Shown here: one piece after another, positions 9,745 through 44,449 of the stretch | Position numbering within the stretch: the first letter of the stretch is position 1 | Layout: each line of letters opens with the position of its first letter | Assembly: GCF_029537375.1 (NCBI RefSeq) | Contig: NZ_CP120679.1 | Span: forward strand, 1,972,001-2,036,000 | From: Bacillus sp. HSf4 | Lineage (GTDB): Bacteria > Bacillota > Bacilli > Bacillales > Bacillaceae | Direction: 5' to 3' | Length of the DNA stretch: 64,000 bases | Made by a program: the position numbers and the translations under genes | Notes under the pieces: model-generated | What the model was told of the DNA's origin: nothing | Databases searched by the model: none | What the model saw: only the letters and a program-made list of their open reading frames with translations

Positions 9745-11007
9745 TTGAATAAACAGGAAGTCATAAAAGAAAAAGTGATATTGGTTGGATGCCAGCTGCC
9801 GCATGTAACCGACGAGCGTTTTTCATATTCGATGGAAGAGCTCGCCGCTTTGACGAAAACCGCTGACGGAACGGTTGTTTCCACTGTGACACAGAAGCGG
9901 AACCGTGCGGACAGCGCTACATATATCGGAAAAGGAAAAGTAGATGAACTGGCGGTGCTTTGCGAAGAGTTAACGCCTGATGTGCTGATTTTCAACGACG
10001 AGCTATCGCCGAGTCAGCTGAAAGCGCTTGTTACTTATCTTGACGTGAAAATCATTGACCGGACGCAATTGATCCTCGACATTTTCGCGAAACGGGCGCG
10101 GACGCGGGAAGGGAAGCTGCAAGTCGAGCTGGCCCAGCTGCAATATGCACTCCCGCGCTTAAGCGGACAAGGGATTAACCTGTCGAGACAAGGAGGCGGA
10201 ATCGGAACGAGAGGCCCCGGGGAAACAAAGCTTGAAAGCGACCGGCGCCACATTAGAAACCGGATACATGAAATCAATGTACAGCTTTCGGCCGTTATTC
10301 GCCATCGAAACAGATACAGAGAAAGAAGAAAGAAAAACGGCGTCTTGCAAATTGCCCTTGTCGGCTATACGAATGCGGGAAAATCCACATGGTTCAACCG
10401 CTTGACAGACGCGGACAGCTATGAAGAAAATCTTCTGTTTGCCACGCTTGATCCGATGACCCGCAAAATGACGCTGCCGAGCGGCTACAGTGTGCTGTTA
10501 TCCGATACGGTCGGATTTATCCAGGATCTGCCGACGACTTTAATTGCGGCATTCAGATCGACTTTGGAGGAAGTGAAGGAGGCTGATTTGATCCTGCACA
10601 TGATCGATTCCTCACATGAAGATTATGCGGGGCACGAAGCCACTGTCAAGCGCCTTCTCGAAGAGCTGGAGGCCGATGATATTCCCGTGTTGACAGTCTA
10701 CAACAAACGGGATCAAAAGAGGGCCGATTTCATCCCATCAGCAGGAAGGGAGCATATCATGACAAGCGCCAAAATAGACGGAGACCTGCTTTTATTTAAG
10801 CAGGCAGTCGAAGAATATATCAAACACGAGCTGCTTGTACCATTCGAGGTGGAAATTCCCGCTTCAGATGGAAGGCTTTTATCAAGAGTCAAATCCGAAA
10901 CCATGACGAAAAGCAGTGTGTTTAATGAAGATCGGGAAGCATATGAGGTGAAAGGGTACATCATGCCCGAGCAGAACATATTGGGAGAACTGAAGAAGTT
11001 TATGTAG
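9745..11007 (+). CDS. hflX: GTPase HflX (YnbA)
   Basis: 420 residues from the TTG at 9745, which AAAGGAA precedes at good spacing; an upstream TTG at 9721 is less likely. The order is an HflX N-terminal domain ([26 protein letters not shown]), a Gly-rich linker with [15 protein letters not shown], then the G domain: P-loop [10 protein letters not shown] near residue 206, [10 protein letters not shown] (G3) and NKRD (G4). HflX is a ribosome-associated GTPase that rescues or splits stalled ribosomes under stress. Followed by ynbB, as in B. subtilis. Confidence 0.95.
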
Positions 11008-11025
11008 GAAAGGATACTTGTAAGA

Positions 11026-12291
11026 ATGTTTGAGACATTAAAGCATGGAGATTTATTAAAAAAAACGGCATTTGAAACAGAACACGACATCCGAGACATC
11101 CATAGAAAAATTGATGAAGTCAGTGAACGAAATGAATGGAGGGTGCTTGAAAGCTACCGCAAGCATAAAGTTTCAGACACTCATTTCACACCTTCGACAG
11201 GGTATGGCTATGATGATATCGGCCGGGAGACGCTTGAGACGATTTACGCAGATGTCTTCGGCGGTGAAGCCGGTCTAGTCAGGCCGCAGATCATCTCGGG
11301 AACACACGCGATTTCAATCGCATTATTCGGCGTTCTCCGGCCGGGTGACGAACTTCTTTATATCACAGGGAAACCGTACGATACACTTGAAGAAATCATC
11401 GGTGTCAGAGGTGAAGAAAACGCTGGTTCTTTAAAGGATTTTAACATTCACTACAGCGATGTCGCCTTGACTGAAGAAGGAACAGTTGATTTCGAACGGG
11501 TTGCGTCTTCCATCACTCCGCGGACAAAGGTGGTCGGCATCCAGCGTTCCAAAGGGTATGCCAACCGTCCTTCTTTTACAATAGATGAGATTGAAAACAT
11601 GATTCGGTTTGTTAAGGAAATCAATGAAAACATCATCGTTTTCGTAGACAACTGCTACGGAGAGTTTGTTGAAGAACGCGAGCCCTGCCATGTCGGCGCC
11701 GACCTGATGGCTGGATCACTCATTAAAAATCCCGGCGGCGGACTGGCGAAAACTGGAGGCTATATCGTCGGAAAAGAAGAATGGGTGAAAGCTTGCTCCT
11801 ACCGGATGACATCACCGGGCATCGGCAGGGAAGCAGGCGCATCCCTTTATTCCCTTCAGGAGATGTATCAAGGTTTCTTCCTGGCGCCGCATGTCGTAGC
11901 ACAGGCATTAAAAGGGGCTGTTTTCACGGCGCGGTTTCTAGAGAAGCTGGGCTTTCGTCCGAACCCTTCATGGGACAGCAGACGCACCGATTTGATTCAG
12001 TCTGTCGAGTTCTCCGGCTCCGAGCAGATGATCGCTTTTTGCCAGGCGATCCAGTACGCTTCTCCGGTCAATTCCCATGTGACGCCTTACCCAAGCTATA
12101 TGCCGGGCTATGAAGACGACGTCATTATGGCTGCCGGTACATTCGTCCAAGGGGCGAGCATTGAATTATCAGCTGATGGCCCTATAAGACCGCCTTATGT
12201 AGCTTATGTACAAGGCGGATTAACCTATGCCCATGTGAAAAATGCGATCATCAGCGCGGCCGATGCATTGATGGAACGGCAATTAATTTAG
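11026..12291 (+). CDS. ynbB: PLP-dependent enzyme YnbB (methionine gamma-lyase / aluminum-resistance family)
   Basis: 421 residues, fold-type I pyridoxal-phosphate enzyme. Seen are STGYGYDDIGRETLE near residue 58, the aspartate strand IVFVDNCYGEFVE near 205, and the Schiff-base lysine region SLIKNPGGGLAKTGGYIVG near 230. The family is annotated as methionine gamma-lyase-like or aluminum resistance; the true substrate is unknown. Conserved neighbour of glnRA in Bacillus. Confidence 0.92.
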   Translation: MFETLKHGDLLKKTAFETEHDIRDIHRKIDEVSERNEWRVLESYRKHKVSDTHFTPSTGYGYDDIGRETLETIYADVFGGEAGLVRPQIISGTHAISIALFGVLRPGDELLYITGKPYDTLEEIIGVRGEENAGSLKDFNIHYSDVALTEEGTVDFERVASSITPRTKVVGIQRSKGYANRPSFTIDEIENMIRFVKEINENIIVFVDNCYGEFVEEREPCHVGADLMAGSLIKNPGGGLAKTGGYIVGKEEWVKACSYRMTSPGIGREAGASLYSLQEMYQGFFLAPHVVAQALKGAVFTARFLEKLGFRPNPSWDSRRTDLIQSVEFSGSEQMIAFCQAIQYASPVNSHVTPYPSYMPGYEDDVIMAAGTFVQGASIELSADGPIRPPYVAYVQGGLTYAHVKNAIISAADALMERQLI

Positions 12292-12311
12292 AAAAAGAAA
12301 TTAAAAAATGA

Positions 12312-12362
12312 TGTAAAGAATCCTAACATCATGTTGACACATTTTATAACATCACATATAAT
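12312..12362 (+). promoter_or_regulatory. glnRA promoter with GlnR/TnrA operator
   Basis: TGTAAAGAATCCTAACA at 12312-12328 is an exact match to the GlnR/TnrA box TGTNAN7TNACA. It sits just upstream of TTGACA (12334-12339) and TATAAT (12357-12362), spaced 17 bp: a near-perfect sigma-A promoter. This is the autorepressed glnRA arrangement of Bacillus, with GlnR blocking transcription when nitrogen is plentiful. Confidence 0.92.
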
Positions 12363-12392
12363 AAATTTATATAAGAAAAGGAGGAAATTGAG

Positions 12393-12800
12393 ATGAGTGA
12401 TAAAATTCGCCGCTCAATGCCCTTATTTCCAATAGGAATCGTCATGCAGCTGACCGAATTGTCAGCAAGGCAAATTCGCTATTATGAGGAAAATGGACTG
12501 GTATTTCCTGCGAGAAGCGAGGGGAACAGACGGCTGTTTTCGTTCCATGATGTCGATAAGCTGCTTGAGATTAAAGACTTGATTGAACAAGGTGTAAACA
12601 TGGCGGGAATTAAACAAATTTTCGCGAAGTCAGAACAAGAACAAAAAGAAGAGAAACAAGACAAACCGAAAAAGGCCGAGAAACACAACCTGTCAGATGA
12701 AGAGCTGAGAAAGCTGCTGAAAAACGAGCTCATTCAAGCAGGCCGTTTCCAAAGAGGGACAACATTCCGCCAGGGAGACATGTCCAGGTTTTTTCATTAA
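12393..12800 (+). CDS. glnR: Nitrogen regulator GlnR (MerR family repressor)
   Basis: 135 residues: an N-terminal winged-helix MerR domain ([19 protein letters not shown], then [20 protein letters not shown]), a short helical dimerisation segment, and a basic C-terminal tail that in B. subtilis senses feedback-inhibited glutamine synthetase. AGGAGG lies 7 nt before the ATG. It represses glnRA and, in B. subtilis, ureABC and tnrA, relevant here because a urease operon is on the same segment. Confidence 0.97.
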
Positions 12801-12856
12801 TTGGTTAGCAACTGCATTGCTATATACATTTACCTTTTAGAGGAGGAGTTTTACGA

Positions 12857-14191
12857 ATGGCAAAGTATACAAGAGACGACATTGTTAAACTAGTAAACGA
12901 GGAGAATGTCAAATACATCCGCCTTCAGTTTACAGACATTCTTGGAACGATTAAAAACGTTGAAATTCCTGTGAGCCAGCTGGAAAAAGCACTTGATAAT
13001 AAAGTCATGTTTGACGGCTCTTCAATCGAAGGCTTCGTCCGCATTGAAGAATCAGATATGTACCTATACCCTGACTTAGATACATTTGTCATTTTCCCAT
13101 GGACAGCCGAAAAAGGTAAAGTAGCCCGTTTCATCTGCGACATCTACAATCCGGACGGCACACCGTTCGAAGGTGACCCGCGCAACAACTTGAAACGCAT
13201 CTTGAAAGAAATGGAAGACATGGGCTTCTCTGATTTCAATCTTGGACCTGAACCGGAATTCTTCCTGTTCAAGCTTGACGAAAAAGGCGAGCCGACGCTT
13301 GAGCTGAACGACAAAGGCGGATACTTTGACCTTGCGCCGACCGATCTTGGCGAAAACTGCCGCCGCGACATCGTTCTTGAACTTGAAGAAATGGGCTTTG
13401 AAATCGAAGCGTCTCACCACGAAGTTGCACCTGGACAGCACGAAATCGATTTTAAATACGCCGGAGCGATCCGCGCTTGTGACGACATTCAAACGTTTAA
13501 ACTCGTTGTCAAAACAATCGCGCGTAAACACGGCCTGCACGCAACATTTATGCCAAAACCATTATTCGGTGTGAACGGATCAGGGATGCACTGCAATCTA
13601 TCACTCTTCAAAAACGGCGCCAACGCGTTCTTTGACCAAGACGCCGATCTTCAATTGAGTGAAACAGCGAAACAATTTATCGCAGGCATCGTGAAACACG
13701 CTACAAGCTTTACTGCCGTGACGAACCCGACGGTCAACTCTTACAAACGTCTTGTTCCAGGCTATGAAGCACCTTGCTATGTCGCATGGAGCGCGCAAAA
13801 CAGAAGCCCGCTTATCCGCATCCCGGCTTCCCGCGGCATCAGCACGCGTGTAGAAGTAAGAAGCGTTGATCCTTCTGCAAACCCGTACCTTGCACTCAGC
13901 GTACTGCTAGCAGCAGGCCTTGACGGCATCAAAAACAAACTGGACGCGCCGGCTCCGATCGACCGCAACATCTATGTGATGACGAAAGAAGAGCGCCTCG
14001 AAAACGGAATCGTCGACCTTCCGGCAACTCTTTCAGACGCCTTGGAAGAATTCAAATCAAACGAAGTCATGGTCAAAGCCCTCGGCGACCACCTTTTCGA
14101 ACACTTCGTCGAAGCAAAAGAAATCGAATGGGATATGTTCCGCACACAAGTTCATCCTTGGGAGCGCGAGCAGTATATGTCTCAGTATTAA
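12857..14191 (+). CDS. glnA: Glutamine synthetase type I
   Basis: 444 residues, full length. The beta-grasp [14 protein letters not shown], the [13 protein letters not shown] loop, the ATP/metal segments GPEPEFFLF and [24 protein letters not shown] and the feedback loop with the catalytic Glu and [14 protein letters not shown] are all present. It makes glutamine from glutamate and ammonia and is the sensor for GlnR and TnrA. Its last 51 bp are the left copy of a duplicated attachment-like sequence that recurs at 18309-18362. Confidence 0.98.
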
Positions 14192-14194
14192 TTT
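14138..14194 (+). repeat. attL-like direct repeat overlapping the 3' end of glnA
   Basis: The 54-bp block from TCCGCACACAAGTTCATCC (about 14139) to the glnA stop TATTAAT (about 14192) is repeated at 18309-18362 with two mismatches, in the same orientation. Integrative elements commonly use the 3' end of a conserved gene and restore it on insertion, so this is read as attL. Confidence 0.8.
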
Positions 14195-14197
14195 TGA

Positions 14198-14231
14198 AAC
14201 CCCTTGGCACCGTTGGTGTCAGGGGGTTTTT
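14198..14231 (+). terminator. Terminator of glnRA
   Basis: AAACCCCTTGGCACC pairs with GGTGTCAGGGGGTTT, followed by five T. It follows the glnA stop directly and therefore lies inside the presumed integrated element. Confidence 0.85.
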
Positions 14232-14307
14232 GAATTTTGGTCAAAAGAATGTAAGGGGTCTTCTTTTTGGTCTTTGGCCAAAATATGACCAAAAAAATAT
14301 GAAGTTA

Positions 14308-14420
14308 TTAATCTAACTCCATAATCGCTGAGACATAATCCTCGTAATCTTTGATTCTGTTTTGAAGAACGAGCTTATCGTCATTTTGACGTGTTCTTTC
14401 CCTCATGCAGATCATTAACC
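14308..14420 (-). pseudogene. C-terminal fragment of an unrecognised phage-type protein
   Basis: On the minus strand the codons ending ...ICMRERTRQNDDKL... and DYEDYVSAIMELD look like a natural protein C-terminus. Upstream of about 14415 the same frame runs into sequence that codes for an endolysin on the other strand. The junction shows two truncated genes joined tail to tail. Family not recognised. Confidence 0.35.
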
Positions 14421-15114
14421 GATCTGTGCAAACGATATGGTCTTTCAATTGACAAAATCGTTCGCCATTACGATGCATCAAACAAAAATTGCCCAGCACC
14501 TTAGGGCAGTGATGCAAGTCAGCTGGCGGCATTTCGCAAAATAGTCGACAGCCTGCTCGGAAATAAAACTGTATCTAAAACGACTGCACCCACAAGCAAG
14601 CCGAGCAAATCCACTGGAACGATCTTGAAAAAAGGATCATCAGGCTCCAAAGTCAAGGCCTTACAAAAGCGTTTGATTGCTGCAGGTTTTTCGCTGCCGA
14701 AGTATGGGGCTGATGGTTCTTACGGTAATGAAACTGTGCAAGCTGTAAAATCCCTTCAAAAGAAGGCGGGAATCAGTAGATTGCATTTACGGACCAGCAA
14801 CAGAAAAAGCACTGTCTGCCATTGAAAAGAAAAAGTCATCTTCAAGCGGAAAAAAATCATCTTACAAGCTGCCGTCCGGCATCTATAAAGTGAAAAGCCC
14901 GATGATGAAAGGAACAGCTGTCCGGCAGATTCAGGAGGCGCTGTCTGCTCTTTATTATTACCCTGACAAGGGTGCCAAGAATAACGGCATTGACGGCTAT
15001 TACGGCCCGAAAACGGCAAACGCGGTCAAACGGTTCCAGCTGATGCACGGGCTGTCTGCTGATGGCATTTACGGGCCGAAGACAAAGGCAAAACTTGAAG
15101 CACTATTGAAGTAA
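14415..15114 (+). pseudogene. Prophage endolysin (XlyA/XlyB-like amidase) pseudogene
   Basis: The reading frame begins inside an amidase-2 domain (SLTDLCKRYGLSIDKIVRHY, then DASNKNCPAP), hits a TAG at about 14503, continues FRKIVDSLLGNKTVSKTTAP into a peptidoglycan-binding repeat (KGSSGSKVKALQKRLIAAGF), and shifts frame near 14780. It then goes on YGPATEKALSAIEKKKSS to a second repeat (GIDGYYGPKTANAVKRFQLM) and the stop at 15114. The enzyme domain lacks its front part. It was a phage lysis amidase with two wall-binding repeats, now broken by truncation, one stop and one frameshift. Confidence 0.85.
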
Positions 15115-15120
15115 GTAAAA

Positions 15121-15142
15121 AATCCCCCCTAAAAGGGGGGAT
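15121..15142. terminator. Strong hairpin after the endolysin pseudogene
   Basis: ATCCCCCC TAAA GGGGGGAT is a perfect 8-bp stem between the plus-strand pseudogene and the minus-strand immunity gene. It could stop transcription from both sides. Confidence 0.6.
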
Positions 15143-15151
15143 AGATCCTTA

Positions 15152-15433
15152 TTAATCTCTGTTTAGAACTTTAATTAGCGTATCAACCATTTGCTTTATT
15201 TGCTTTTGATTTAGATTTCTCATTCCATGTTCTCTTATAAAATTATTGGCTGCATTCCATTGCTCATTATTTTTTATCTCATGAAGTTCATAAAGGAACA
15301 TCTTTATATTATTATCACTTTCATCCTTTCTGTAATCCTCTGCTAAATCTCTAATATCAGAGAAATCCATACTAGGATTAAAATAACATTCCAAAAAATA
15401 TTTGAATTTTTCTAATGTGAATTCTTTGCTCAA
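15152..15433 (-). CDS. Small acidic protein, likely immunity partner of an LXG toxin
   Basis: 93 residues, helical and acidic, starting MSKEFTLEKFKYFLECYF. I do not recognise a named family, but position is telling: its TTG start overlaps the TGA of a frame-shifted toxin C-terminus by 4 nt, directly behind an LXG-domain stump. In Bacillus such small genes after LXG toxins neutralise the C-terminal toxin domain in the cytoplasm. The toxin is lost, so this is an orphan immunity gene, if the reading is right. Confidence 0.6.
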   Translation of the reverse strand: MSKEFTLEKFKYFLECYFNPSMDFSDIRDLAEDYRKDESDNNIKMFLYELHEIKNNEQWNAANNFIREHGMRNLNQKQIKQMVDTLIKVLNRD

Positions 15434-15439
15434 ACCTTC

Positions 15440-15721
15440 TCACCTGACTTTACAACAGGAAAACCTGTCACAATTATATCCATTCTCCATTGAACTATCT
15501 TTTTTAAGAATAAAGGATTCATAGAACTTCAAGAATGGGGTATGACTTTCCTCATAAAAAGAACGAATCGCGTCACCGCCTTTTCCTTTTAAAGCATCGT
15601 CAAGAGACGTGATTCCATCCATGCTTTTTTTGACGTTGGCGATTTCTTCTGATTGCCTTTTTAATTGTTCGAGCGTTTGGTCAATTGCATTGTGCAACGC
15701 CTGAACATCTAAGGTCTTCAT
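15440..15721 (-). pseudogene. Truncated LXG-domain polymorphic toxin (N-terminal stump)
   Basis: The first about 75 residues are a clear LXG domain: MKTLDVQALHNAIDQTLEQL, then LDDALKGKGGDAIRSFYEE. This is the helical type VII secretion targeting module of Bacillus YeeF/YobL/YxiD toxins, normally 500-600 residues long. After residue 80 the frame is foreign and stops. In the +1 frame the same DNA reads DIIVTGFPVVKSGEKV and stops on the immunity start, which looks like the original toxin C-terminus. An internal deletion has removed the middle. GAGGAG precedes the ATG. Confidence 0.8.
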
Positions 15722-16112
15722 GGCATTCTCCTCTAATACTAATGGTTACAATCAGTATAGAGTTTACCACTTTCCTTTGAATGAGTCTTAAGGAAAAAAT
15801 ACAGGAATACTCCTTTTATCTCATTCACTGAATTTTTAAATAATGTTATAGTGTGAAGGTATTCATATAATATACAAGTTAGTAAAAAAAAGCTTAAATT
15901 TCATAGTTATCATTGAACTTACAATAAATATAATATATGCTAATTTATGTAAAAGTTAAGCGGGTATTGGGGGGAGCTTTCCTTTTCCCGCATTCTTTAG
16001 CTAGCAGTCAGGAGGGGATCTGGTATTGTAACATTAACTCCAAAATCAAATGCTGGAAATTGATTAAAAAATCTTGTCTTAGCAAAAAATTCACTTTAAA
16101 GGAGATTGCAAA
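15722..16112. other. Intergenic region between the LXG stump and the bacteriocin-like gene
   Basis: 390 bp, very AT-rich, divergent arrangement. It must hold promoters for both sides. I see TATAAT-like elements around 15860-15875 and 15930-15940 but no pair I would assign. A GGGGGGAGC-rich patch at 15969-15980 stands out. No ORF is convincing. Confidence 0.4.
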
Positions 16113-16658
16113 ATGAAAAATGTGTACAAAAAGATATTGATTTCTTTCTTAGCTTTTCTTTTAATTTTTTCAGTAGTTGGATCACCGGTTTCGAGCGCAA
16201 AATCAAATTCAAATGACCAAGAGATAGAATCGTTGGCTGAAGATTTAGAATTTCTAATGGAAGAAGCTAGTATCTATGATTCAAACAACAAATTAGTGGG
16301 ATTTAATTTCGATAAATTGACAGAAAGGTTTGGTGAAATTGAAGAATTACAGATACTTGAAAAAGAAATAAAAGAAGGCACTTGTGAACCTAAGGAAACT
16401 AGTGAATTTCAAGTACTAGCTGCCAAGGGTACTTGGGGAGACTGTATGATAGATGCATTAAAGGATCACTTTGGTGTTGCGTTAATAGAAGTTGCTTTAA
16501 CTGGAGGTTTATGGACTTATTTAGAACAAAAAGCTTATAAAGAGGCCGCTAAACTTTTGTTAAAAATCGGAATAGGAGGGAATGTTATTGGTCTGGTAGC
16601 GTTTCTTACTTGGTATTCTGCTAAATGTTTAGAAGGACGGGGGCCTTGGGCCAAATAA
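16113..16658 (+). CDS. Secreted bacteriocin-like peptide precursor
   Basis: 181 residues. Residues 1-30 are a Sec signal peptide (MKNVYKKIL, a hydrophobic core, cleavage probably after SSA). Residues 31-100 are acidic and helical, a pro-region. The last about 75 residues, from about AAKGTWGDC, form a hydrophobic module with two cysteines, Gly-rich helices (ALTGGLWTYL, IGIGGNVIGLVAFLTWY) and the end EGRGPWAK. This layout, signal - propeptide - hydrophobic Cys-bracketed C-terminus, recalls SdpC-type or halocin-C8-type peptides. A small two-helix membrane protein follows. AAAGGAG lies before the ATG. Not recognised as a named family. Confidence 0.6.
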   Translation: MKNVYKKILISFLAFLLIFSVVGSPVSSAKSNSNDQEIESLAEDLEFLMEEASIYDSNNKLVGFNFDKLTERFGEIEELQILEKEIKEGTCEPKETSEFQVLAAKGTWGDCMIDALKDHFGVALIEVALTGGLWTYLEQKAYKEAAKLLLKIGIGGNVIGLVAFLTWYSAKCLEGRGPWAK

Positions 16659-16749
16659 TAATAAAAAAGTAATTCCTAATTGTTAATTAAAAAACTGATT
16701 ATCAATTACTGCATCTGTGAATAAACGTCTGAATTAAGGAGTATTTTGT

Positions 16750-16962
16750 ATGACCAACAAATTAAAGTTGTACTTCCTTGGATATTTTATTTTTTTTCCG
16801 TTAACTTTTATGTTAATTTATTTTATCTGGATGTATCTGATTAAAACTAAATATTTATGGGATGTTCTTTCAAACTGTACATCTATTATTGGATTGTACT
16901 ATATATTTACCAGTATAATTTTTGTTTTTCTTTTGAAAAAAGAAGTAAAAGAGAGTGATTAA
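16750..16962 (+). CDS. Small two-helix membrane protein, candidate immunity protein
   Basis: 70 residues with two transmembrane helices (about 8-30 and 44-62) and a short charged tail KKEVKESD. It begins 91 nt after the bacteriocin-like gene, preceded by AAGGAG, with no terminator obvious in between. Small membrane proteins directly behind a hydrophobic secreted peptide are often its immunity factor, as SdpI is for SdpC, though there is no sequence likeness to SdpI. Role is inference from context. Confidence 0.5.
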   Translation: MTNKLKLYFLGYFIFFPLTFMLIYFIWMYLIKTKYLWDVLSNCTSIIGLYYIFTSIIFVFLLKKEVKESD

Positions 16963-16984
16963 AAGAGATTGAAACAACCCAAAA

Positions 16985-17013
16985 GGCTGCCAAGGAAAAT
17001 CTGGCAGTCTAAC
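16985..17013 (-). terminator. Hairpin between convergent genes
   Basis: GGCTGCCA and TGGCAGTC form a stem around AGGAAAATC. On the minus strand it is followed by TTTTGGG, fitting termination of the YolD-like gene. Confidence 0.5.
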
Positions 17014-17029
17014 CTTCCTTTTTAAAAGA

Positions 17030-17398
17030 CTATTTAATTTCTACACCGACGACATCCTCAAATTTAATGAGATTGGTGTCTCCTTTTGAATCCACAACAT
17101 GGAACAGCTTGCGAAGTTGATTTATGTAATGGATATGGCCCTCTATTTGAACGATCTCCCCGGTTTCGGGTCCGTTAAGCATTGGCAGCGGCTTAAATAC
17201 AGAAAACTGAACTGGATGATTAAACTCCATTGCTTCACTTATGGCCATTTCCATATCCTCGATCTGAGACATGTCAAGAACCGGCCTTTTTACTTTGTCC
17301 TGGTTGCTTTCTAACTCGCGAAGCAGGCTGACATGCTCGGGCAGCATCATGGCCGTCCATTTGATTGATCCCCGATCTTTCAAGTTGTCATCTTTCAT
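17030..17398 (-). CDS. YolD-like family protein
   Basis: 122 residues from the ATG at 17398, with AAGGAG spaced 8 nt before it (an upstream in-frame start is too close). The family core is clear: DRGSIKWTAMMLPEHVSLLREL, then VLDMSQIEDMEMAISEAME and the strand pattern GEIVQIEGHIHYIN. YolD-like genes are normally paired with the UV-damage polymerase uvrX in Bacillus phages and are LexA-controlled. Here uvrX is missing but a LexA-like box lies 30 bp upstream. The molecular role of the family is not established. Confidence 0.85.
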   Translation of the reverse strand: MKDDNLKDRGSIKWTAMMLPEHVSLLRELESNQDKVKRPVLDMSQIEDMEMAISEAMEFNHPVQFSVFKPLPMLNGPETGEIVQIEGHIHYINQLRKLFHVVDSKGDTNLIKFEDVVGVEIK

Positions 17399-17427
17399 GG
17401 TGTTCATCTCCTTGAGATGATTATAAG

Positions 17428-17441
17428 GGAACGTTTGTTCT
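17428..17441 (-). promoter_or_regulatory. LexA (DinR) box upstream of the YolD-like gene
   Basis: Read on the minus strand, AGAACAAACGTTCC contains the full GAAC-N4-GTTC core of the Bacillus LexA box CGAACNNNNGTTCG, with only the outermost bases differing. It is 30 bp before the start codon. Confidence 0.7.
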
Positions 17442-17499
17442 GTTCTCAACAAGAAAAATAACCCATCCAAAGTAAAGCCCTCTTTAAAAAGAAGGCTTT

Positions 17500-18090
17500 T
17501 TATTTTGGTGGGCGAATTTCAATCAAAATAGAATTTTTATTAAGCTGGATTTTAAGTGTAAGTTTACAAATTTTATTGGAGGTTGTGTAATTTGGATTAG
17601 CCTCCTTGAGAGCAGCCTCTAAAGTCTCTTCTTCAAAATTTAAAGTATCCAGTAATCTATACACTGCGAGAGTTCCCGTACTTGACCAATTCATAACTTT
17701 GTCTTTATCAACAGTGGTGTATACGCGAAGGTCAATACCTGCAAGCTCTTTATCTTTATTATGTATGCTTGATAAGATATAACCTTTATGCTTTTCATCA
17801 TTATCAGCTTCTTTGGCTAAAATGTGAACATAGCTCCCACCATCAATCTTGAAAAAGTCCTCATCTTTTTGAAGGTGGGAAGGGATTTTTTCCTTACCGT
17901 CATAGATACCATTATCAATGTATTTATTATATTCATCAATAAATTCATCTAGGGTAAAATTGAATGTGCTCTTTGTTTCAGCAACTTCTGTCTTTTCTTC
18001 AGCTGTAGCTGTCTGGTTGTCCGCTTTATTTTCTGGTGCACTGCTGCATCCTGCCAACACCAAAAATAAAACCAGTAATATCTTTTTCAT
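17500..18090 (-). CDS. Secreted lipoprotein of unknown function
   Basis: 196 residues from the ATG at 18090 (GAGGGGGATC before it). MKKILLVLFLVLAGC ends in a classic lipobox, so Cys-15 should be lipidated. A Glu/Thr-rich linker follows (ENKADNQTATAEEKTEVAET), then a globular domain beginning FTLDEFIDEYNKYI. A related layout, a membrane anchor, a charged linker, then FTLAQFEQRF, occurs in the protein at 36593. Function unknown. Confidence 0.75.
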   Translation of the reverse strand: MKKILLVLFLVLAGCSSAPENKADNQTATAEEKTEVAETKSTFNFTLDEFIDEYNKYIDNGIYDGKEKIPSHLQKDEDFFKIDGGSYVHILAKEADNDEKHKGYILSSIHNKDKELAGIDLRVYTTVDKDKVMNWSSTGTLAVYRLLDTLNFEEETLEAALKEANPNYTTSNKICKLTLKIQLNKNSILIEIRPPK

Positions 18091-18308
18091 AATGATCCCC
18101 CTCTTGTGTAAAACGAACATTTTCATTTTAAAACAAAAGAGGGGATTATCCAATGTGTTAACAGTTAAGTGAACACCCACAAATGCACCCACAAAACACC
18201 CACAATCAAAAAATATTTCTTGATATTTTATCCTACATAAAAAAATGAAACCCTTATATATCAACGTTCATGACCCAATATGATATATAAAGGTAATATA
18301 GGTTATAA

Positions 18309-18362
18309 TCCGCACACAAGTCCACCCTTGGGAGCGCGAGCAGTATATGTCTCAGTATTAAT
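18309..18362 (+). repeat. attR-like direct repeat of the glnA 3' end
   Basis: 54 bp matching the last codons and stop of glnA at 52 positions, including AGCGCGAGCAGTATATGTCT. It is not part of any gene here. With the glnA end at 14138-14192 it brackets 4.1 kb of phage-like and toxin DNA, as left and right attachment sites would. Just beyond it, TTTGACCAC repeats (18454-18475) and an inverted GGTGGTCAAAA resemble integrase arm sites. Confidence 0.8.
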
Positions 18363-18551
18363 GGGTAAATCATTGATTTAAAAGAGTATTAGTAAAATAA
18401 GATGGTGGTCAAAATGAATGGTAAGACCTTAATTGATAGGTTTGACCACTTTTTGACCACCAAATTTTATAAAAAAATTACCTCATGATTGAGTTGAAAT
18501 AACTTTCATAACTGTCCACTGATTTGTTTTCAGATTCTCCGATACATAGAA
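18363..18551. other. Repeat-rich intergenic DNA beyond attR
   Basis: No gene seen. It holds GGTGGTCAAAATG near 18404, then TTTGACCAC TTTTTGACCACC near 18449-18471. A related TTTTGGTCAAAAG lies just inside attL (about 14235). These short direct and inverted copies near both attachment copies could be binding sites for the lost integrase. Confidence 0.4.
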
Positions 18552-18713
18552 ATGTTTGATTTAAAAAAGGGCTTAGGGATATCATCATCAACCTTAGTTA
18601 AAATGTCTAAAAGGTCATTGGCAGTCATTCTGAAAATCTGCGAATACTTAGAGTGCAATATTGAAGAAGTAGTAGAGTTTGTTGAAGATGAAACTGCAGA
18701 TGCAAATAAATAA
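18552..18713 (+). pseudogene. Truncated Cro/XRE-type regulator
   Basis: 53 codons, MFDLKKGLGISSSTLVKMSK, then RSLAVILKICEYLECNIEEV and VEFVEDETADANK. This is the C-terminal two-thirds of a YozG/Cro-like helix-turn-helix protein (recognition-helix region STLVKMSK followed by LxxICEYLxCxIEDV). The first helices are missing and no ribosome binding site is present. Phage origin likely. Confidence 0.6.
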
Positions 18714-19521: not shown

Positions 19522-20139
19522 GTGGCGAAAAAGTTTATTAAAACTATTGTCTCACTTTTGGTCTTTGTGTTGGTTATGAATGTTCTGAGTCCATTATCTC
19601 AAGCAATTGAAGAGGGAAAAGAGGATGAAAGCATTGATTTCAACTCAACTCTCAATACATATGATATTTTTCCAAAAAACATTGATGGAACATCTTCAAT
19701 TTCATCCCTCAATAAAAAAGATATTCAAAGTTTTAATAATGAAGAGTTTGAAAAAGAATTTGATTTTTTAATAGAAGACCCAATATTTCAGCTGTTAGAA
19801 CAGGTGCTAGCCAAACAAGAAGTTAAGGACGCTGAAATAAAGCAGATGTGGATACCAGTAGTTGCTGCTGCTTTAAGGGTCTTAATGAGCAAAGTTGGCA
19901 GATCTGGAATGAAAAAAGGTTGGGCGATTGCGAGGCCGCATGTCCAAAAAGCTTTAAAAGCGCCGAGCAAATACAAGATCGATGGCCCCGGTGGTGGTGG
20001 CAGAATTATTCAGGTTCGTTTAAAATCTACCGGAAAACCAATTTTCAGATTAGATTACTATCCAGTTAAAACAGGAGGCCCCTATAAACTTCATTACCAT
20101 GTGCCGCCTAACATGAAAAAACATCATATCATTTTCTAA
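19522..20139 (+). CDS. Secreted toxin-like protein (possibly SAR2788-type)
   Basis: 205 residues from a GTG with AGGAGG spaced 6 nt before it. A Sec signal (MAKKFIKTIVSLLVFVLVMN, cleavage near SQA) is followed by an acidic pro-region, then a basic domain from about residue 112 (MWIPVVAAALRVLMSKVG). The C-terminus GPGGGGRIIQVRLKSTGKP, IFRLDYYPVKTGGPYKLHYH is built like the short toxin domains at the ends of Bacillus polymorphic toxins. A 90-residue acidic gene follows after 15 nt and may be its immunity. The SAR2788 label is from memory of the layout and is tentative. Confidence 0.6.
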   Translation: MAKKFIKTIVSLLVFVLVMNVLSPLSQAIEEGKEDESIDFNSTLNTYDIFPKNIDGTSSISSLNKKDIQSFNNEEFEKEFDFLIEDPIFQLLEQVLAKQEVKDAEIKQMWIPVVAAALRVLMSKVGRSGMKKGWAIARPHVQKALKAPSKYKIDGPGGGGRIIQVRLKSTGKPIFRLDYYPVKTGGPYKLHYHVPPNMKKHHIIF

Positions 20140-20154
20140 AGGGAGGGTTTCCAA

Positions 20155-20427
20155 ATGAATTATGATGAAACACAACATCTACATTTTAGTTACAATAAAA
20201 AGGGATTAGATCTTGAAGCAGTAGGATTAAAGCGACTAGATGTTGATGTTTGGGACGTTTATTTTAACTTTCAGGATCATAACATAAATGAACCAACTAT
20301 GAGGTTTTCAAAAATCGATCCATTCGGTTGTAAGATATTTTCAATAACAAGTAAAGATTTAAGTGAAGATGAGGCGACTCAATACTTCGAACTTTGGATT
20401 AAACATGAGTTAAATAAAGCTCTCTAA
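20155..20427 (+). CDS. Candidate immunity protein for the preceding toxin
   Basis: 90 residues, acidic, no membrane segment, starting MNYDETQHLHFSYNKKGLDL. It lies 15 nt after the toxin-like gene with GGGAGGG before its ATG and shares a terminator. A decayed copy of its 3' two-thirds sits at 37491-37663 without any toxin, showing that this gene travels as a module. No named family recognised. Confidence 0.6.
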   Translation: MNYDETQHLHFSYNKKGLDLEAVGLKRLDVDVWDVYFNFQDHNINEPTMRFSKIDPFGCKIFSITSKDLSEDEATQYFELWIKHELNKAL

Positions 20428-20582: not shown

Positions 20583-20921
20583 ATGAGAATTTTTTGGTTT
20601 TTTTTGGCTGGCGCTCTGATTGGAATAATAATGAATACTATTCAAGAAATTTTTTCGTCTGCTGTCACAACAACTGTTTTAGTGGTTCTTGTGGCTGCTT
20701 GTTTTGTTTTTGACCTAGTTAAAGGTAAGAGGAGCCAAGAGCAGGGTGATAAAAAATATGAGTTTATATGGTGGATTGCAACAATTCTCATGGTTCTAGT
20801 GATGACTTTTAATACTGTCTTTTTAAAAATTGATCCTAAGTATAATATCATCGTTGTATTGATTCACATTTTGTTCATGGTGATTATTAAGAGTAGATGG
20901 AAGAAAGCTAAGACAGATTAA
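20583..20921 (+). CDS. Four-helix membrane protein, unknown
   Basis: 112 residues with about four transmembrane helices (MRIFWFFLAGALIGIIMN, TTTVLVVLVAACFVFDLV, EFIWWIATILMVLVMTF, YNIIVVLIHILFMVII) and short basic loops. No family recognised. Such proteins are frequent among accessory immunity or stress genes. The start is supported by position only; the upstream AGAAGGG is weak. Confidence 0.6.
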   Translation: MRIFWFFLAGALIGIIMNTIQEIFSSAVTTTVLVVLVAACFVFDLVKGKRSQEQGDKKYEFIWWIATILMVLVMTFNTVFLKIDPKYNIIVVLIHILFMVIIKSRWKKAKTD

Positions 20922-20945
20922 GCAGGTGGTCGACCTGCTCTTTTC
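20921..20945 (+). terminator. Terminator
   Basis: AGCAGGT GGTCG ACCTGCT followed by CTTTTC, right at the stop of the four-helix membrane protein gene. Confidence 0.75.
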
Positions 20946-21167
20946 GTTCCATCTCGGCTGATTTTTTCCGGTGTCAATTTTCTCCTTCAGTTTCAAAATA
21001 AAAGAGACATTCATTGGGATGCCTTTTGCCGAAAATGATGTCTGGATTTAGCCTTTGCGGAAATATGTTTAATTCAAGGTTAAATAATCAAACCCTTTAT
21101 AATTGTATACCAATCTGCAAGAAGAGAATCCTGATTTTCAAAATGGATGAATCGCATACTAACGAAG

Positions 21168-21470
21168 TGTTTCTCGACCTGTTAAGCAGTACTCGCAGCG
21201 GCCACAACTTTCAAACATCCATGCAATAGAGACGCGGTCTCCCTCTTTTAAGCTGGTTACGCCTTCACCAATCTCGGTTACAATGCCTATTCCTTCATGA
21301 CCTAAAGTGACACCTGCAACATCACCAAAATCAGCATTCTTCACATGTAAGTCAGTATGACATATATCACAGTATTCCATCTTCACTTTAGCTTCACCAT
21401 GTTTTATAGGACGCAATTCTTTTTTTACTATTTCTACATTTTTGTCTTTCGTTGCTACTACTGCTTTCAT
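21168..21470 (-). pseudogene. N-terminal fragment of a zinc alcohol dehydrogenase (AdhA-like)
   Basis: About 100 of the usual about 345 residues remain, starting [19 protein letters not shown]. The catalytic zinc ligand region CDICHTDLH, the GHEG motif and the first cysteines of the structural zinc site (CGRCEYC) are present, then the frame ends just after TGRETLR. The nucleotide-binding domain is gone, so no activity is expected. It is closest to B. subtilis AdhA, which detoxifies methylglyoxal and formaldehyde. Confidence 0.85.
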
Positions 21471-22362
21471 CTAAATAACACCATTTCCAATTTATGTTAG
21501 GGTATAAAACCTACACTGGTAATTTAGCACAATATTCTTCTTGGAAAATCAACATAAATATGAATTTTTTTTTAGATAAATGGCAGACTATGAACGCAGA
21601 GCAGTCGAATTCTCTCGACAGCTTTACCAGCGTCTTGCTCAAAGCAACAGAGTATAGAGTGAAACTTTCCAAGTTGTATCCGTAAAATTGGAAGCTGTTA
21701 AACGTTGTCAGTTCCATTTAGCATCTTAGTCTGGTGACAGGTGACCATCAACCACAGGTCATATCTGACTCTATCTCTGTATGCTTCAAATCGGCATTGA
21801 CATTTATATTTCGGCCCTATTTTTTCTTTGCAATTAGGGATGATTGGGAAGTATAAGTATACATAGTCAACTTTGATCCTGACGATAAAATGACTGAGTT
21901 GTGCAGACTCTTTTCGTTTTGCGACTTGTACTTGCAGAGTTCGCAAGCTATTCGATGAGAATGATAAAAATATTGTGATCTATCACAATATTTACAATTA
22001 AACGACTTATTTTATCGTCTTGATTTTTCATAAAAATGTCATAGAGGAGTCGATCTTCAACCTTTTTCCTATGTTATTGTAATAATTGAACAAATAATCC
22101 GATAGGGAGATGAAGCGATCAGTATAGTATAAATAAATAAACTGGTAGTTTTTTAATGTATTTATAAGTGACGATTAAGAATCAACGAGGCTTAAAAACA
22201 GTAAAATGAAAGCGGTTTATAGAAATGGTGATACAGAATGAGGGGGTCTTAAGAGGAGAAAAATCCTTTTAAATGACAAAGACTGACGAAACTGAAGTAT
22301 AAATAGTTGTGTTGGTTGTGTCTATTCAAAAAAAGAAGGATGGAATATTAGGAGGCAGAGAG
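21471..22362. other. 890-bp gene-free stretch before the PTS operon
   Basis: No intact gene. The only open frames are short and without ribosome binding sites. It contains a strong palindrome (next entry), a TGAAAGCGGTTTAT element at 22206 resembling a cre site at 12 of 14 positions, and an AT-rich run at 22100-22180 where the PTS promoter may lie. I found no convincing sigma-54 promoter, although mannose-family PTS operons are often sigma-54 dependent. Confidence 0.45.
21968..21993. repeat. Perfect palindrome AAATATTGTGA-TCTA-TCACAATATTT
   Basis: Two 11-bp arms around 4 bp. The TTGTGA...TCACAA core resembles Rex or Fnr boxes, but the centre is two bases too short for either. It may be an operator for an unidentified dimeric regulator or a transcription-stopping hairpin. 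Confidence 0.6.
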
Positions 22363-23349
22363 ATGGTAGGGATTATCCTGGCAAGCCATGGAGGATTTGC
22401 TGAAGGCATCTTACAATCTGGCACAATGATTTTGGGAGAACAAGAAAACGTTAAGGCTGTCACCTTAATGCCAAGCGAAGGTCCAGACGATTTGAGAGCA
22501 AAAATGGAAGCAGCAATTGCATCTTTTGATAATCAAGATGAAGTATTATTCCTAGTCGATCTATGGGGAGGTACACCATTCAATCAAGCTAACCGCTTGT
22601 ATGAAGAACACAAAGACAAATGGGCAATCGTTGCTGGTATGAGTTTGCCAATGTTGATTGAAGCTTATGCATCCCGTTTTTCAATGACGTCTGCTCAAGA
22701 AATCGCAGCACACATCATCAAAACAGCAAAAGAAGGGGTTAGAATGAAGCCTGTAGAGCTAGAACCTAAAGACAATACTGTGGCTCAAGTTGCTGAAGGT
22801 GGACAAGCAAAAGGTGTGCTTCCTCCTGGTAAAGTAGTTGGTGACGGGAAGATTCAGTTCGTTTTAGTCCGCGTGGATTCTCGTTTATTGCATGGTCAGG
22901 TGGCGACTGCATGGACAAAGGCTACAAAACCAAATCGTATTATCGTAGTTTCAGATGCAGTGTCTAGAGATGACCTTCGAAAGAAATTGATCGAGCAGGC
23001 CGCACCGCCAGGGGTTAAGGCAAATGTTGTTCCAATCAGCAAAATACTGGAAGTTGCAAAAGATCCCCGTTTTGGTGACACAAAAGCACTGTTATTATTT
23101 GAAAACCCATTAGATGTCCTAAGAGTTATTGAGGAGGGCGTGGATATTAAAGAAGTGAACGTTGGATCTATGGCTCATTCAACCGGTAAAGTGGCCGTTA
23201 GCAATGTACTTTCTATGGGACGAGAAGATGTTGAGGCTTTCGAGAAAATGAAAGAAAAAGGCATCCAGTTTGATGTACGGAAAGTACCCAGTGATTCTCG
23301 TGTAGACATGGATGACATTCTAAACAAAGCGAAGGATGAATTAGCATAG
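22363..23349 (+). CDS. PTS mannose/fructose/sorbose family EIIAB
   Basis: 328 residues from ATG 22363 (AGGAGG spaced 7 nt). IIA domain in residues 1-130 with the phosphorylated His-9 in ILASHGGFAEG. A Pro/Gly-rich linker around 150-160, then the IIB domain with its phospho-His in VRVDSRLLHGQVATAW (about 174). Fused EIIAB as in manX of enterobacteria and lactic bacteria; B. subtilis levDE are split. It carries phosphate from HPr to the sugar entering through the EIIC/EIID pair encoded next. Sugar specificity is not visible, with glucose/mannose the usual case. Confidence 0.93.
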   Translation: MVGIILASHGGFAEGILQSGTMILGEQENVKAVTLMPSEGPDDLRAKMEAAIASFDNQDEVLFLVDLWGGTPFNQANRLYEEHKDKWAIVAGMSLPMLIEAYASRFSMTSAQEIAAHIIKTAKEGVRMKPVELEPKDNTVAQVAEGGQAKGVLPPGKVVGDGKIQFVLVRVDSRLLHGQVATAWTKATKPNRIIVVSDAVSRDDLRKKLIEQAAPPGVKANVVPISKILEVAKDPRFGDTKALLLFENPLDVLRVIEEGVDIKEVNVGSMAHSTGKVAVSNVLSMGREDVEAFEKMKEKGIQFDVRKVPSDSRVDMDDILNKAKDELA

Positions 23350-23383
23350 CGATATAACAAAATTTATATAAAAAGGAGGGCAT

Positions 23384-24187
23384 ATGATGTCTATTATAGC
23401 AATTGTTTTCATCATTTTAATTGCTTTTCTAGCTGGTATGGAAGGGATATTAGATGAATTTCAATTCCATCAACCACTAGTGGCATGTACATTAATCGGT
23501 TTAGTAACAGGTAACTTGGAGGCCGGTATTGTTCTTGGCGGTACACTTCAGATGATTGCACTTGGATGGGCGAATATCGGAGCAGCCGTAGCGCCGGATG
23601 CTGCATTTGCGTCAGTTGCATCAGCAATTATTTTAGTATTGGGCGGACAAGGTGTTGACGGTGTCGCATCGGCAATCGCAGTAGCGGTTCCACTTGCAGT
23701 AGCGGGTCTTTTCTTAACAATGATCGTTCGTACAATTGCTGTTCCTATCGTACATATGATGGATGCCGCAGCTGAAGAAGGAAATTTCAGAAGGATCGAA
23801 ATTTTGCATATCGTTGCGGTGTGTTTACAAGGTATCAGAATTGCGATTCCTGCAGGAGCACTTTTATTCATCCCGGCAGAAAGCGTTCAATCATTCTTGG
23901 AGTCAATGCCTGCATGGCTAACAGACGGAATGGCTATTGGTGGTGGAATGGTGGTCGCTGTTGGGTATGCACTAGTTATTAATATGATGGCAACAAAAGA
24001 AGTATGGCCGTTCTTCATTATTGGTTTCGTAATAGCTGCAATTTCTGAATTAACACTTATTGCACTTGGTGCATTGGGTGTAGCGTTAGCTCTTATTTAC
24101 TTGAATCTTTCTAAAATGGGCGGTTCTTCAAATGGCGGCGGAGGCAATTCCGGCGACCCGCTTGGTGATATCTTAAACGATTATTAA
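23384..24187 (+). CDS. PTS mannose family EIIC
   Basis: 267 residues, strongly hydrophobic. It has the EIIC features GMEGILDEFQFHQPLVACTL near the N-terminus, LGGTLQMIALGWANIGAAVAPDAA and a Gly/Asn-rich soluble tail (GGSSNGGGGNSGDP). One of the two membrane subunits. AAGGAGGG lies before a double ATG; 23387 is equally possible as the start. 34 nt after EIIAB, 22 nt before EIID. Confidence 0.92.
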   Translation: MMSIIAIVFIILIAFLAGMEGILDEFQFHQPLVACTLIGLVTGNLEAGIVLGGTLQMIALGWANIGAAVAPDAAFASVASAIILVLGGQGVDGVASAIAVAVPLAVAGLFLTMIVRTIAVPIVHMMDAAAEEGNFRRIEILHIVAVCLQGIRIAIPAGALLFIPAESVQSFLESMPAWLTDGMAIGGGMVVAVGYALVINMMATKEVWPFFIIGFVIAAISELTLIALGALGVALALIYLNLSKMGGSSNGGGGNSGDPLGDILNDY

Positions 24188-24209
24188 TTCTAAAAGGAGG
24201 AGAAGAGAA

Positions 24210-27780: not shown

Positions 27781-29034
27781 ATGAATAATGATACAGTGTG
27801 GCAAAGAAATTTCACCTTTCTTTTTTGCTCTAAGATGGTGAAGATAACGGCCGATTCTTTGGCATTTAACACAATCCTGTGGTTTCTTATTTTGGATGGA
27901 AAAGGGGCTGTTGGAACAGCCTTTTTAATAGCTGTAAGTTTTCTTCCTCAGGCTATATTGGGGCCAATCATTACTCCTTTGATGAAAACAAGTACATTGA
28001 AGTTTTGGATGTTCTTTTCAGACTTAACGAGGGCATTAATCATGTTAATTATTCCAATTTGCTACTTCAATGGCTTTTCACCTTTGCCGTTTATTATTTT
28101 GCTTATGCTTGTGCATTCTGCTACAGGGGCTTCATATGATCCTGCTTCTGTTTCTTTAATTCCGAAAATTGTGAAGCAGGAAATGATTCAAAAGGCGAAT
28201 GCGACAATACAATCTGTAGGCCAAGCAATCAAATTAGGAGCGGTTTCACTCTGTGGTGTTTTAATTGTATTGATTGGTGCAGCTCATACAATGCTGCTGA
28301 TATTACCTCTCTATGTAATATCAGCTATTTTAGTCTTATTCATAAAGTATAGTGTGAGTGAGGTGAGAAATGCGAAAGCAGCCAAACCACGAGAGCCATA
28401 TTTAAAGAAGTTAAGAAGGGGATTCATGCTTGTAAGGCGTCATCATATATTGTTTCCATTAGCCATTTTTTGTGTGTTTTTAAACTTAGGATCTGCACCA
28501 TGGGAGGCGCTTGCAGCAGTCTACATAGCCGAGGATTTAAACCAGGGGGCAATTATTCATTCTATAGTGAGGGTTTTAACCACAGGCGGGGCTTTTTTGA
28601 TGGGCTTTATTTTGACTAGAGTGAAAGTAAATCGTTATGGGTTGTTGTTTGTTGCTGCTGGCATTGTAGAAGGAACAGCTTTCTTCATTACAGGTATGAA
28701 TTCACTTTTACTGTTGGTGTTTGTTGCAGCCTTTGTCTTAGGAGCAACGATTAGCGCAATAAATGTCCCAGAGCATACGATCATACAAATATCGGTTGAT
28801 GATGAGGACCAGCCCCAGGTCTATGCTGTTATCAGTATGATTTCATATGTAATGATTCCTATTGGTGCTTTAATGGCTGGGTATGCTGCGACTGTTTTTG
28901 GGGCAGGAAAAGTCATCGCTTTTGGAGGGATAGTCGAAATACTTGCAGGACTCGGTATCTTAGCTTTCACAAAACTCGGAAAATCTCAACGATCAGATTT
29001 ATCAAATGCCAAAGAAGATAGCTTAGAGCTGTAA
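27781..29034 (+). CDS. MFS transporter (drug-efflux type)
   Basis: 417 residues with about 12 transmembrane helices and a central basic loop (KAAKPREPYLKKLRRGF near residue 200). The FSDLTRALIMLIIP segment between helices 2 and 3 and SATGASYDPASVSLIPKIV between helices 4 and 5 fit the MFS_3/macrolide-efflux type (DHA3-like). AAGGGGG lies before the ATG. No neighbouring regulator. The substrate is not predictable from sequence. Confidence 0.85.
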   Translation: MNNDTVWQRNFTFLFCSKMVKITADSLAFNTILWFLILDGKGAVGTAFLIAVSFLPQAILGPIITPLMKTSTLKFWMFFSDLTRALIMLIIPICYFNGFSPLPFIILLMLVHSATGASYDPASVSLIPKIVKQEMIQKANATIQSVGQAIKLGAVSLCGVLIVLIGAAHTMLLILPLYVISAILVLFIKYSVSEVRNAKAAKPREPYLKKLRRGFMLVRRHHILFPLAIFCVFLNLGSAPWEALAAVYIAEDLNQGAIIHSIVRVLTTGGAFLMGFILTRVKVNRYGLLFVAAGIVEGTAFFITGMNSLLLLVFVAAFVLGATISAINVPEHTIIQISVDDEDQPQVYAVISMISYVMIPIGALMAGYAATVFGAGKVIAFGGIVEILAGLGILAFTKLGKSQRSDLSNAKEDSLEL

Positions 29035-29233
29035 CAATATGAGTGTGTCACATTTGCATTCTAAACATTCAGACTATTTGATATAATAGATTATATTCTG
29101 TCATTTGTGGGAATTTTTCAATGTTTAGCGAAGATAATGTCAATTTTGCTTGTCAAAGAGAAACTTTAGTGTGGAAGAGATAAGATATCCACTTAATTGG
29201 CTTTGCCTTAGCTTAATGAGAGGGGTTTAAGTA

Positions 29234-44209: not shown

Positions 44210-44449
44210 GACGCCTGAGGCCATATTCTGTCTCTTGGAAAGTGCATACTTTCGACAGCGGGGATTCAACTTCAGAAAGCTTGCGTATCAAGTTTTTTAA
44301 AAAACTCTTTCTGTATTCTTTTCCTTTCAACTTCCTCCAATTAAGCAATTATACTTGTATAAAATTTGCATTTTTGGTTCTGGATATCCCAAAGATATGG
44401 TAAGATAAAATAAATTTACACGAAAATAAGCGGGAAGGAGTTTTTGTTT

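Follow-up and report, generated by a model that had tools for sequence, protein, structure and literature searches.

The 3' end of glnA as a putative docking site of a dedicated tyrosine integrase clade, with a stack of decayed prophage ends in Bacillus sp. HSf4

The 3' ends of protein-coding genes such as guaA, dusA and prfC are targets of tyrosine integrases, and a copy of the gene end carried in the phage attachment site (attP) restores the gene end upon integration. Here we describe a locus at the end of glnA, the gene for type I glutamine synthetase, in Bacillus sp. HSf4. The window is the whole 64,000-nucleotide stretch analysed (contig NZ_CP120679.1, positions 1,972,001 to 2,036,000), and coordinates are counted from its first nucleotide. 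The locus shares with guaA-, dusA- and prfC-type integration a tyrosine integrase, a restored gene end and a duplicated end left as a scar. It differs in its target, glnA, and in that one integrase clade has several classes of arm sites (A, B and C) on one core. The kind of element is known; the glnA target, the dedicated clade and the switching of arms may be new. The glnA 3' end is very probably the bacterial attachment site (attB) of phage tyrosine integrases dedicated to this gene, with at least three arrivals stacked in the window and deletions thereafter.

Other described systems resemble parts of this arrangement. The integrases that adjoin glnA consist of an N-terminal Arm-DNA-bind_4 domain, a SAM-like domain and a catalytic domain, the same domains in the same order as in integrases of the ICEBs1 and Tn916 type. 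Those elements use another target, and no conjugation genes are seen by eye among the open reading frames (ORFs) of four glnA-type prophages (G032, G009, G080 and G082; G numbers denote genomes and viral records, L numbers loci), a point on which no dedicated search was made. In Bacillus subtilis, prophage-like region 3 lies behind glnA. Cis-mobilisable elements that grow by tandem accretion also hold passenger DNA between attachment (att) copies, and a circle described below likewise spans an internal att copy. The glnA elements differ in being phage-derived, and their movement rests on one database circle.

Among phage records, SPbetaL5 and four Listeria phage fragments that bear no annotation (85% over 48 bases) are the sole matches of a DNA search with the core. 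In SPbetaL5 (OQ921345.1, SPbeta-like), class C arms lie on both sides of the glnA core (61 bp, 92%), and the phage also has a class C integrase. In contrast to the 40-kb prophages it is a 127-kb SPbeta-like genome, and its integrase is 59% identical to that of the class B prophage G080. The hairpin at its att site is weaker than the one beside the first window copy. The public annotation of SPbetaL5 calls the integrase (L068:6177-7325, WIT27598.1) a hypothetical protein and has no feature at the att core. Of 20 kb compared from the class B prophage G032, 28-30% matches the phi105-like phages (phi105, rho14 and vB_BteM-A9Y) at 86-95%, in a comparison that covered about half of each prophage (G032 and G080). 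However, no phi105 record matched the glnA core, and in its compared half G080, which is closest to the right end of the window locus, has only short pieces in common with rho14 and vB_BteM-A9Y.

The repeated glnA end and its integrase remnants

The glnA ORF (12857..14191, + strand) encodes 444 residues, and its last 18 codons form the att core. The first att copy (14140..14192, +) is a 53-bp core made up of the glnA end, the stop codon and the next T. It recurs at 18310..18362 (+), 4,170 bp away in the same orientation and with 2 mismatches in 53 nucleotides, so that the 3' end of the target gene lies at both boundaries. A weaker extension covers 59 of 65 nucleotides (14128-14192 against 18298-18362). 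BLAST of a 121-bp site query against the 4.42-Mb genome (E <= 0.001) finds these two places and no third copy. A sequence-only reading of this stretch had reported the recurrence, which is borne out at 51 of 53 bp, and had proposed integration at the glnA 3' end with both copies as attachment sites, which our data support. By its repeat identity and its match to G080, copy 2 is probably the right attachment site (attR) of a class B prophage. Copy 1 is adjoined by a terminator-like hairpin (14198..14232, +; fold -24.5 kcal/mol, z -5.7). The residues of the glnA tail are near-invariant across 36 full-length Bacillus glnA genes.

The same reading found no integrase, and here it was wrong: the window retains C-terminal stumps of two classes (A and C) and an internal piece of a third (B). 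Class A arm-type motifs follow the hairpin (14235..14294, +), with TTTTGGTC at 14235 and 14265 and GACCAAAA at 14287. Next is what remains of a class A integrase, its final 18 codons with the stop (14308..14364, - strand), in which 17 of 18 residues equal codons 366-383 of the G007 integrase. This stump is fused in frame to codons 267-277 of a class B integrase (14365..14427, -), which has 86% DNA identity over 63 bp with the integrase genes of G080, G081 and G082. On the far side, a class B arm with CACCCACAA at 18174, 18186 and 18197 precedes copy 2 (18174..18308, +); the same arm type is present in G032, G014, G036, G003 and G080-G082. Beyond copy 2 lie class C arm-type motifs (18404..18461, +), with GGTGGTCA at 18404 and TGACCACC at 18454, and then the C-terminal remnant of a class C integrase (18484..18550, -). 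The remnant was assigned by residue identity to G041, in which 12 of 16 residues (18484-18531) equal integrase codons 368-383, and by DNA identity to G027, which is 86% identical over 18309-18542. No third core is found in the window or the genome at the right end of the remnant. The GGTCAAA/TTTGACC repeats noted earlier near both copies are present, but they belong to two different arm-motif sets, the left ones to that of class A and the right ones to that of class C.

The DNA between the copies is phage-type cargo, as had been described, with PHROG and Pfam matches. Joined to the integrase fragment is the 3' part of an endolysin pseudogene (14419..15121, +), 79% identical to G027 and G081 DNA, of which 14890-15114 matches PHROG endolysins (PHROG 1493). 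An LXG toxin stump (15440..15721, -; PF04740, 92 bits) retains the N-terminal domain only. A YolD-like gene (17030..17470, -; PF08863), which has a relative in G080, carries a LexA-type box GAACGTTTGTTC (GAAC-N4-GTTC) at 17429-17440, and a lipoprotein-like phage cargo gene follows (17500..18090, -; PHROG 12746). Three blocks of the window match G080: the LXG stump (85% over 262 bp), 17030-17520 (91%) and 17915-18628 (95.7% over 715 bp), the last of which crosses copy 2 and takes in part of the class C remnant. In place of the G080 content, a gene for an EntV-like secreted bacteriocin candidate (16113..16658, +; PHROG 31694) lies in the window between YolD and the LXG stump. This bacteriocin-like gene had been proposed before and is seen here, though its NCBIfam score (EntV_fam NF058576, 85 bits) lies below the cut-off of 130. 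Of the genes of a complete temperate phage (terminase, portal, capsid, tail, lysis, repressor), the window holds only the 3' part of the endolysin.

The locus therefore appears to be a composite of at least three arrivals (classes A, B and C), a stack of decayed prophage ends, because it contains the A/B integrase fusion, the class B cargo end and the class C stump with its arms. The earlier reading had assumed a single element, and a single integration, between the copies, of one small island or satellite of phage origin that has since lost its integrase would explain why two att copies flank phage-type cargo and why no intact integrase of the glnA family was found when the window's genome was searched. 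This is very improbable. Pieces of three integrase classes are present, the class C remnant lies outside the proposed element, and the ends do not come from one element: the arms are of class A on the left and class B on the right, while in other genomes the two ends mostly match, G006 alone being mixed as well. We rejected the single-element reading because the end classes differ.

A recombinant between a class A and a class B phage could also have integrated once and decayed, with never two lysogens to the left of copy 2. The class A prophage G009 and the class B prophage G032 have 62% of their length in common at 91.9% identity, so exchange should be easy, and the A/B fusion lies in frame inside the integrase gene. 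Against this, the sequences joined at the fusion point have no more than about 1 bp in common (by eye), a hybrid with two arm classes could hardly integrate and excise by one enzyme, and a class C arrival on the right would still be required. We consider such a recombinant unlikely, and favor the stack of separate arrivals. Matches to the class A neighborhood stop at 14363-14365 in 6 of 12 relatives and sooner in the other 6. The junction between integrase and endolysin near 14427, read base by base, has an overlap of about two bases.

Integrases and arm sites at glnA in other genomes

Integrases adjoining glnA, which the sequence-only reading had suggested looking for in other strains, turned up in many genomes of Bacillus and Bacillales. 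We searched a named genome collection with an alignment of seven glnA-type integrases. Of the 80 loci retained from 429 relatives, the top 16 (46-100% identity) adjoin glnA or a copy of its tail; none of the remaining 64, at 36% or less, does so. Genera represented in the top 16 include Domibacillus, Halobacillus, Lederbergia, Cytobacillus, Brevibacillus, Paenibacillus and Paenisporosarcina. The public annotation of Cytobacillus spongiae places the integrase next to glnA, and Domibacillus mangrovi has three glnA-type sites in a row. In a tree, 17 near-complete glnA-adjacent sequences (5 of them reference integrases) form one clade against 62 others with support 100/100; six fragments of the 80, four of them glnA-adjacent, were left out.

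A sample of 397 Bacillales genomes gave 66 matches (E <= 1e-75) in 58 genomes. Two of these, G022 and a second copy of G009, were known from the separate Bacillus data, and the remaining 64 loci were examined. Forty-eight adjoin either glnA itself or a repeat of the final 17-19 codons of the gene, with identities of at least 43.9%; among them, L223 and L242 (at contig ends) and L243 (beside a divergent glnA) are weaker positives. The other 16 lie away from glnA and reach at most 41.8% identity to the references. With G022 included, 44 of the 397 genomes carry a glnA-type integrase. Viral contigs contain 42 loci at 45% identity or more; a glnA tail is present in all six that have at least 150 bp beyond the integrase match, the remaining 36 being trimmed too near the integrase to show one. 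Position and phylogeny together mark the 3' end of glnA as the likely docking site of a dedicated tyrosine integrase clade.

Large serine recombinases were considered as the integrating enzyme and rejected, as none of their 19 matches in 9 of 13 genomes lies beside an att copy. One of the matches (G007:C2:25203-25517, B. glycinifermentans) is about 6 kb upstream of the glnA end and possibly marks a second, unrelated integration site nearby.

Within the genus we compared 44 Bacillus genomes, including that of the window. The glnA 3' end is present in all 44, with extra matches in 15 (the window and 14 of the 43 others), 2.3-44 kb away where both are on one contig. In G009, G014, G032 and G036 the copies are 37.7-43.9 kb apart, and the integrase gene lies just inside, convergent to glnA. 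A translated search finds an integrase or a fragment of one right after glnA in 30 of 44 genomes, full-length in G002, G007, G009, G014, G032 and G036 and, in two of the 30 (G008 and G039), at only about 35% identity; a 31st, in G041, is on its own contig beside a partial core. Eight genomes (G003, G004, G011, G012, G015, G017, G018 and G025) have arm motifs without an integrase, two of them a single motif. Neither an integrase nor an arm motif follows glnA in five of the 44 (G021, G024, G035, G042 and G043). In G017 (L056), the glnA end is present twice over a length of at least 190 bp, at a distance of 2.3 kb, with class B arms after one copy and class A arms after the other.

An empty site is seen in G045, from another genus of the family, where a single glnA 3' site is followed by DNA that is also there in G046 and G050. 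G044 aligns with G045 through the site, has a 10.5-kb insert and realigns from the site; the 73-bp overlap is the duplicated site. The comparison of unoccupied and occupied sites that had been proposed as a check on integration is thus available, outside the genus.

That the glnA 3' end was simply duplicated locally had been named as an outcome that would speak against integration; the cargo would then have entered afterwards in some other way. A duplication is indeed seen, and the extra copy in G017 takes in more of glnA than the core. But copy 2 of the window is preceded by a phage arm common to other prophages, for which reason we rejected duplication at this locus; extra copies are spread through the genus at varied distances, and integrases adjoin the site. 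The probability of a plain duplication here is negligible. Genomes that keep both copies without the cargo, the other pattern named as contrary to integration, were not encountered either.

The arm motifs are conserved words and putative sites: TTTTGGTC/GACCAAAA in class A, CACCCACA in class B and GGTGGTCA/TGACCACC in class C. At least two motifs occur in 27 of 44 windows beside glnA and in 0 of 197 control windows further downstream; at least one occurs in 35 of 44, against exactly one in 3 of the 197 controls. Integrases are 70-98% identical within a class and 53-63% between classes. Among genus members that carry at least two motifs, integrase class equals arm class in 21 (A 8, B 6, C 7); four further members have one matching motif, and none has two or more motifs of another class. 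Both ends match in G009 (A), in G032, G014, G036 and G003 (B), in G019 (C) and in the attP of SPbetaL5 (C on both sides); in G027 and G025 no far motif is seen. The mixed ends of G006 are of class B on the left and class A on the right. At its second copy (L052), a class B integrase remnant lies to the left and a class A far arm comes before copy 2, the reverse hybrid of the window. The agreement of class and arm suggests that a single core has served three classes of integrase, each with arm sites of its own.

Several relatives of the window elements appear complete. The class B prophage G080 (IMGVR_UViG_2554235235_000003, 41 kb) carries terminase, portal, capsid, tail, lysis and repressor genes, and G032 and G009, judged by their ORFs, look like complete prophages of siphophage type, with both of which G014 and G036 share DNA. 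G009 and G032 have no match above 300 bp in their first 3.6 kb, which holds the integrase and att site. In G032, G014 and G036, hairpin-like sequence 3' of both att copies resembles the copy-1 hairpin of the window.

LXG toxin genes lie near the far att end in 6 of 7 glnA-type prophages (two queries; not found in G036) and also in the circle described below; the places are L129:17172-18689, L330:27111-28964 and the far ends of G032, G009, G014, G081 and G082. Near the far att end of G080, L129:19281-19511 encodes a 76-residue HTH_17-like protein (26.1 bits, just under the cut-off of 27), a possible excisionase of the glnA integrase family; similar ORFs are present in G032 and G082.

Probable excision and stacking at the site

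A circular record of 33,117 bp from Bacillus glycinifermentans (NZ_MF996511.1) matches G007 over about 29.7 kb at 99.6-99.9%, starting just past att copy 1 and reaching copy 3. For circle positions 10702-14099 (the record is rotated) there is no counterpart in the G007 pieces compared. The 300 bp to the left of the circle junction are those that flank copy 3 on its left (300/300), and the 300 bp to its right correspond to the sequence on the right of copy 1 (297/300). From its first variable base onward the core has the copy-1 type, which places the crossover within the preceding 19 bp. The inner att copy is also inside the circle, and its right side differs from that in G007. The circle appears to carry an excision junction.

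An LXG toxin gene is present in the circle, and a pair of genes for a major facilitator superfamily (MFS) transporter and a tetratricopeptide repeat (TPR) protein is annotated in it twice. The window has an MFS transporter gene followed by a Rap-like (TPR) gene at 27781-30364 and a second Rap-like gene at 44444-45574 (by eye); in G007, DNA that follows the last att copy matches the MFS/Rap-like stretch.

The att duplication, the empty and filled sites, the link of clade to target, the link of class to arms and the circle junction, this last in a public record, are observed and support integration at the glnA end. In the mechanism we propose, the final 18-19 codons of glnA are repeated in the phage attP, as is seen in SPbetaL5, and are accompanied in classes A and B by a strong terminator hairpin; integration would thus restore the gene. 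Crossover would take place near the 5' end of the shared block, inside ATATGTTCCGCACACAAGT. The N-terminal Arm-DNA-bind_4 domain probably reads the arm words, and the class-arm agreement suggests which enzyme acts on which arms. Since the arm-site sets would have diverged by class on the same core, different phages could stack at one site. The glnA end may have been chosen because its codons hardly change, and the classes may have diverged under the need to tell their own ends from foreign ones. In the window, at least three arrivals (A, B and C, in an order we infer) would have been followed by two or more deletions with little or no shared sequence, leaving integrase pieces and the class B cargo end almost alone. 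The locus probably no longer moves by itself.

A number of observations weigh against this reading. The G080 record is trimmed at the integrase stop, and its own glnA junction is outside the record. The remnant as a whole has no match in any one record: G081 and G027 correspond to its endolysin part, and the G080 endolysin is of another type. The extra copy in G017 spans more of glnA than the core and is therefore a longer duplication. In G008 and G039 the integrase pieces are more distant (about 35% identical) and lack arm motifs. The C-type pieces in G026, G028 and G030 are without two class C motifs; G028 and G030 have one class A motif each and G026 has none. The arm sites are putative, being defined by word conservation. 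The empty site belongs to another genus and not to the species of the window, and no integrase of the glnA family is detectable in the G044 insert, which may therefore itself be a remnant. A fold check 3' of window copy 2 gives no terminator hairpin. Homogenization of the glnA 3' end by phage copies, which the mechanism predicts, is unsupported in the 36 full-length genes: synonymous difference is 0.291 in the last 18 codons and 0.346 elsewhere, ranking 76 of 427 windows. The input to this test was 43 genomes, G041 not among them, from which G017 (no gene), four truncated genes and two of other length were dropped.

It is possible, and we put it forward tentatively, that the divergence of arms on a shared core is evolved co-residence of competing phages at one central gene, in which integrases read their own arms and ignore those of a neighbor, remnants become passengers and the glnA end becomes a dock. 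Because each integrase would ignore the neighbor's arms, lysogens would stack instead of excluding or excising each other. If so, an incoming integrase of matching class could carry off stacked remnants between the outer att copies, as in the 33-kb circle, and the glnA end would be a long-lived loading dock in a Bacillus trade in LXG toxins, bacteriocins and Rap/MFS cargo.

An integrase family that targets the glnA end is the likely reason for the variable DNA behind glnA in Bacillus, and knowledge of this target offers a rule by which the borders of prophages and excised circles at this place can be annotated. With their common core, the three arm classes form a natural test set for arm specificity that evolves while core specificity is held, and for prophages that share one site. 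As glnA is a central nitrogen gene and the phage supplies a terminator at its end, it can be tested how lysogeny affects glnA expression.

Other genes of the window

Two further ORFs lie between the att copies. A possible CdiI-like immunity gene (15152..15433, -) matches Pfam CdiI_2 with 25.9 bits, just under the cut-off of 26.7. A 70-residue small membrane protein (16750..16962, +) is, by its position, a possible partner of the bacteriocin candidate.

Beyond the class C remnant, the stretch 20900-24200 gives matches below 450 bp in 12 of the 43 other Bacillus genomes; in G002, G016, G026, G027 and G040, a piece of it is 2.6-41 kb downstream of glnA on the same contig. It includes a fragment of an alcohol dehydrogenase gene in reverse orientation (21159-21588, by eye). 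Similar pieces occur in nine other genus genomes, in five of which they are downstream of glnA on the same contig.

A toxin-immunity-like pair at 19522-20427 consists of a secreted protein with a histidine-rich C-terminus and a small ORF; the first protein has no Pfam match, and neither has an NCBIfam match. Further downstream, an 814-residue ORF like a phage tail appendage protein (57947-60391) stands alone between a racemase-like gene and lexA (by eye).

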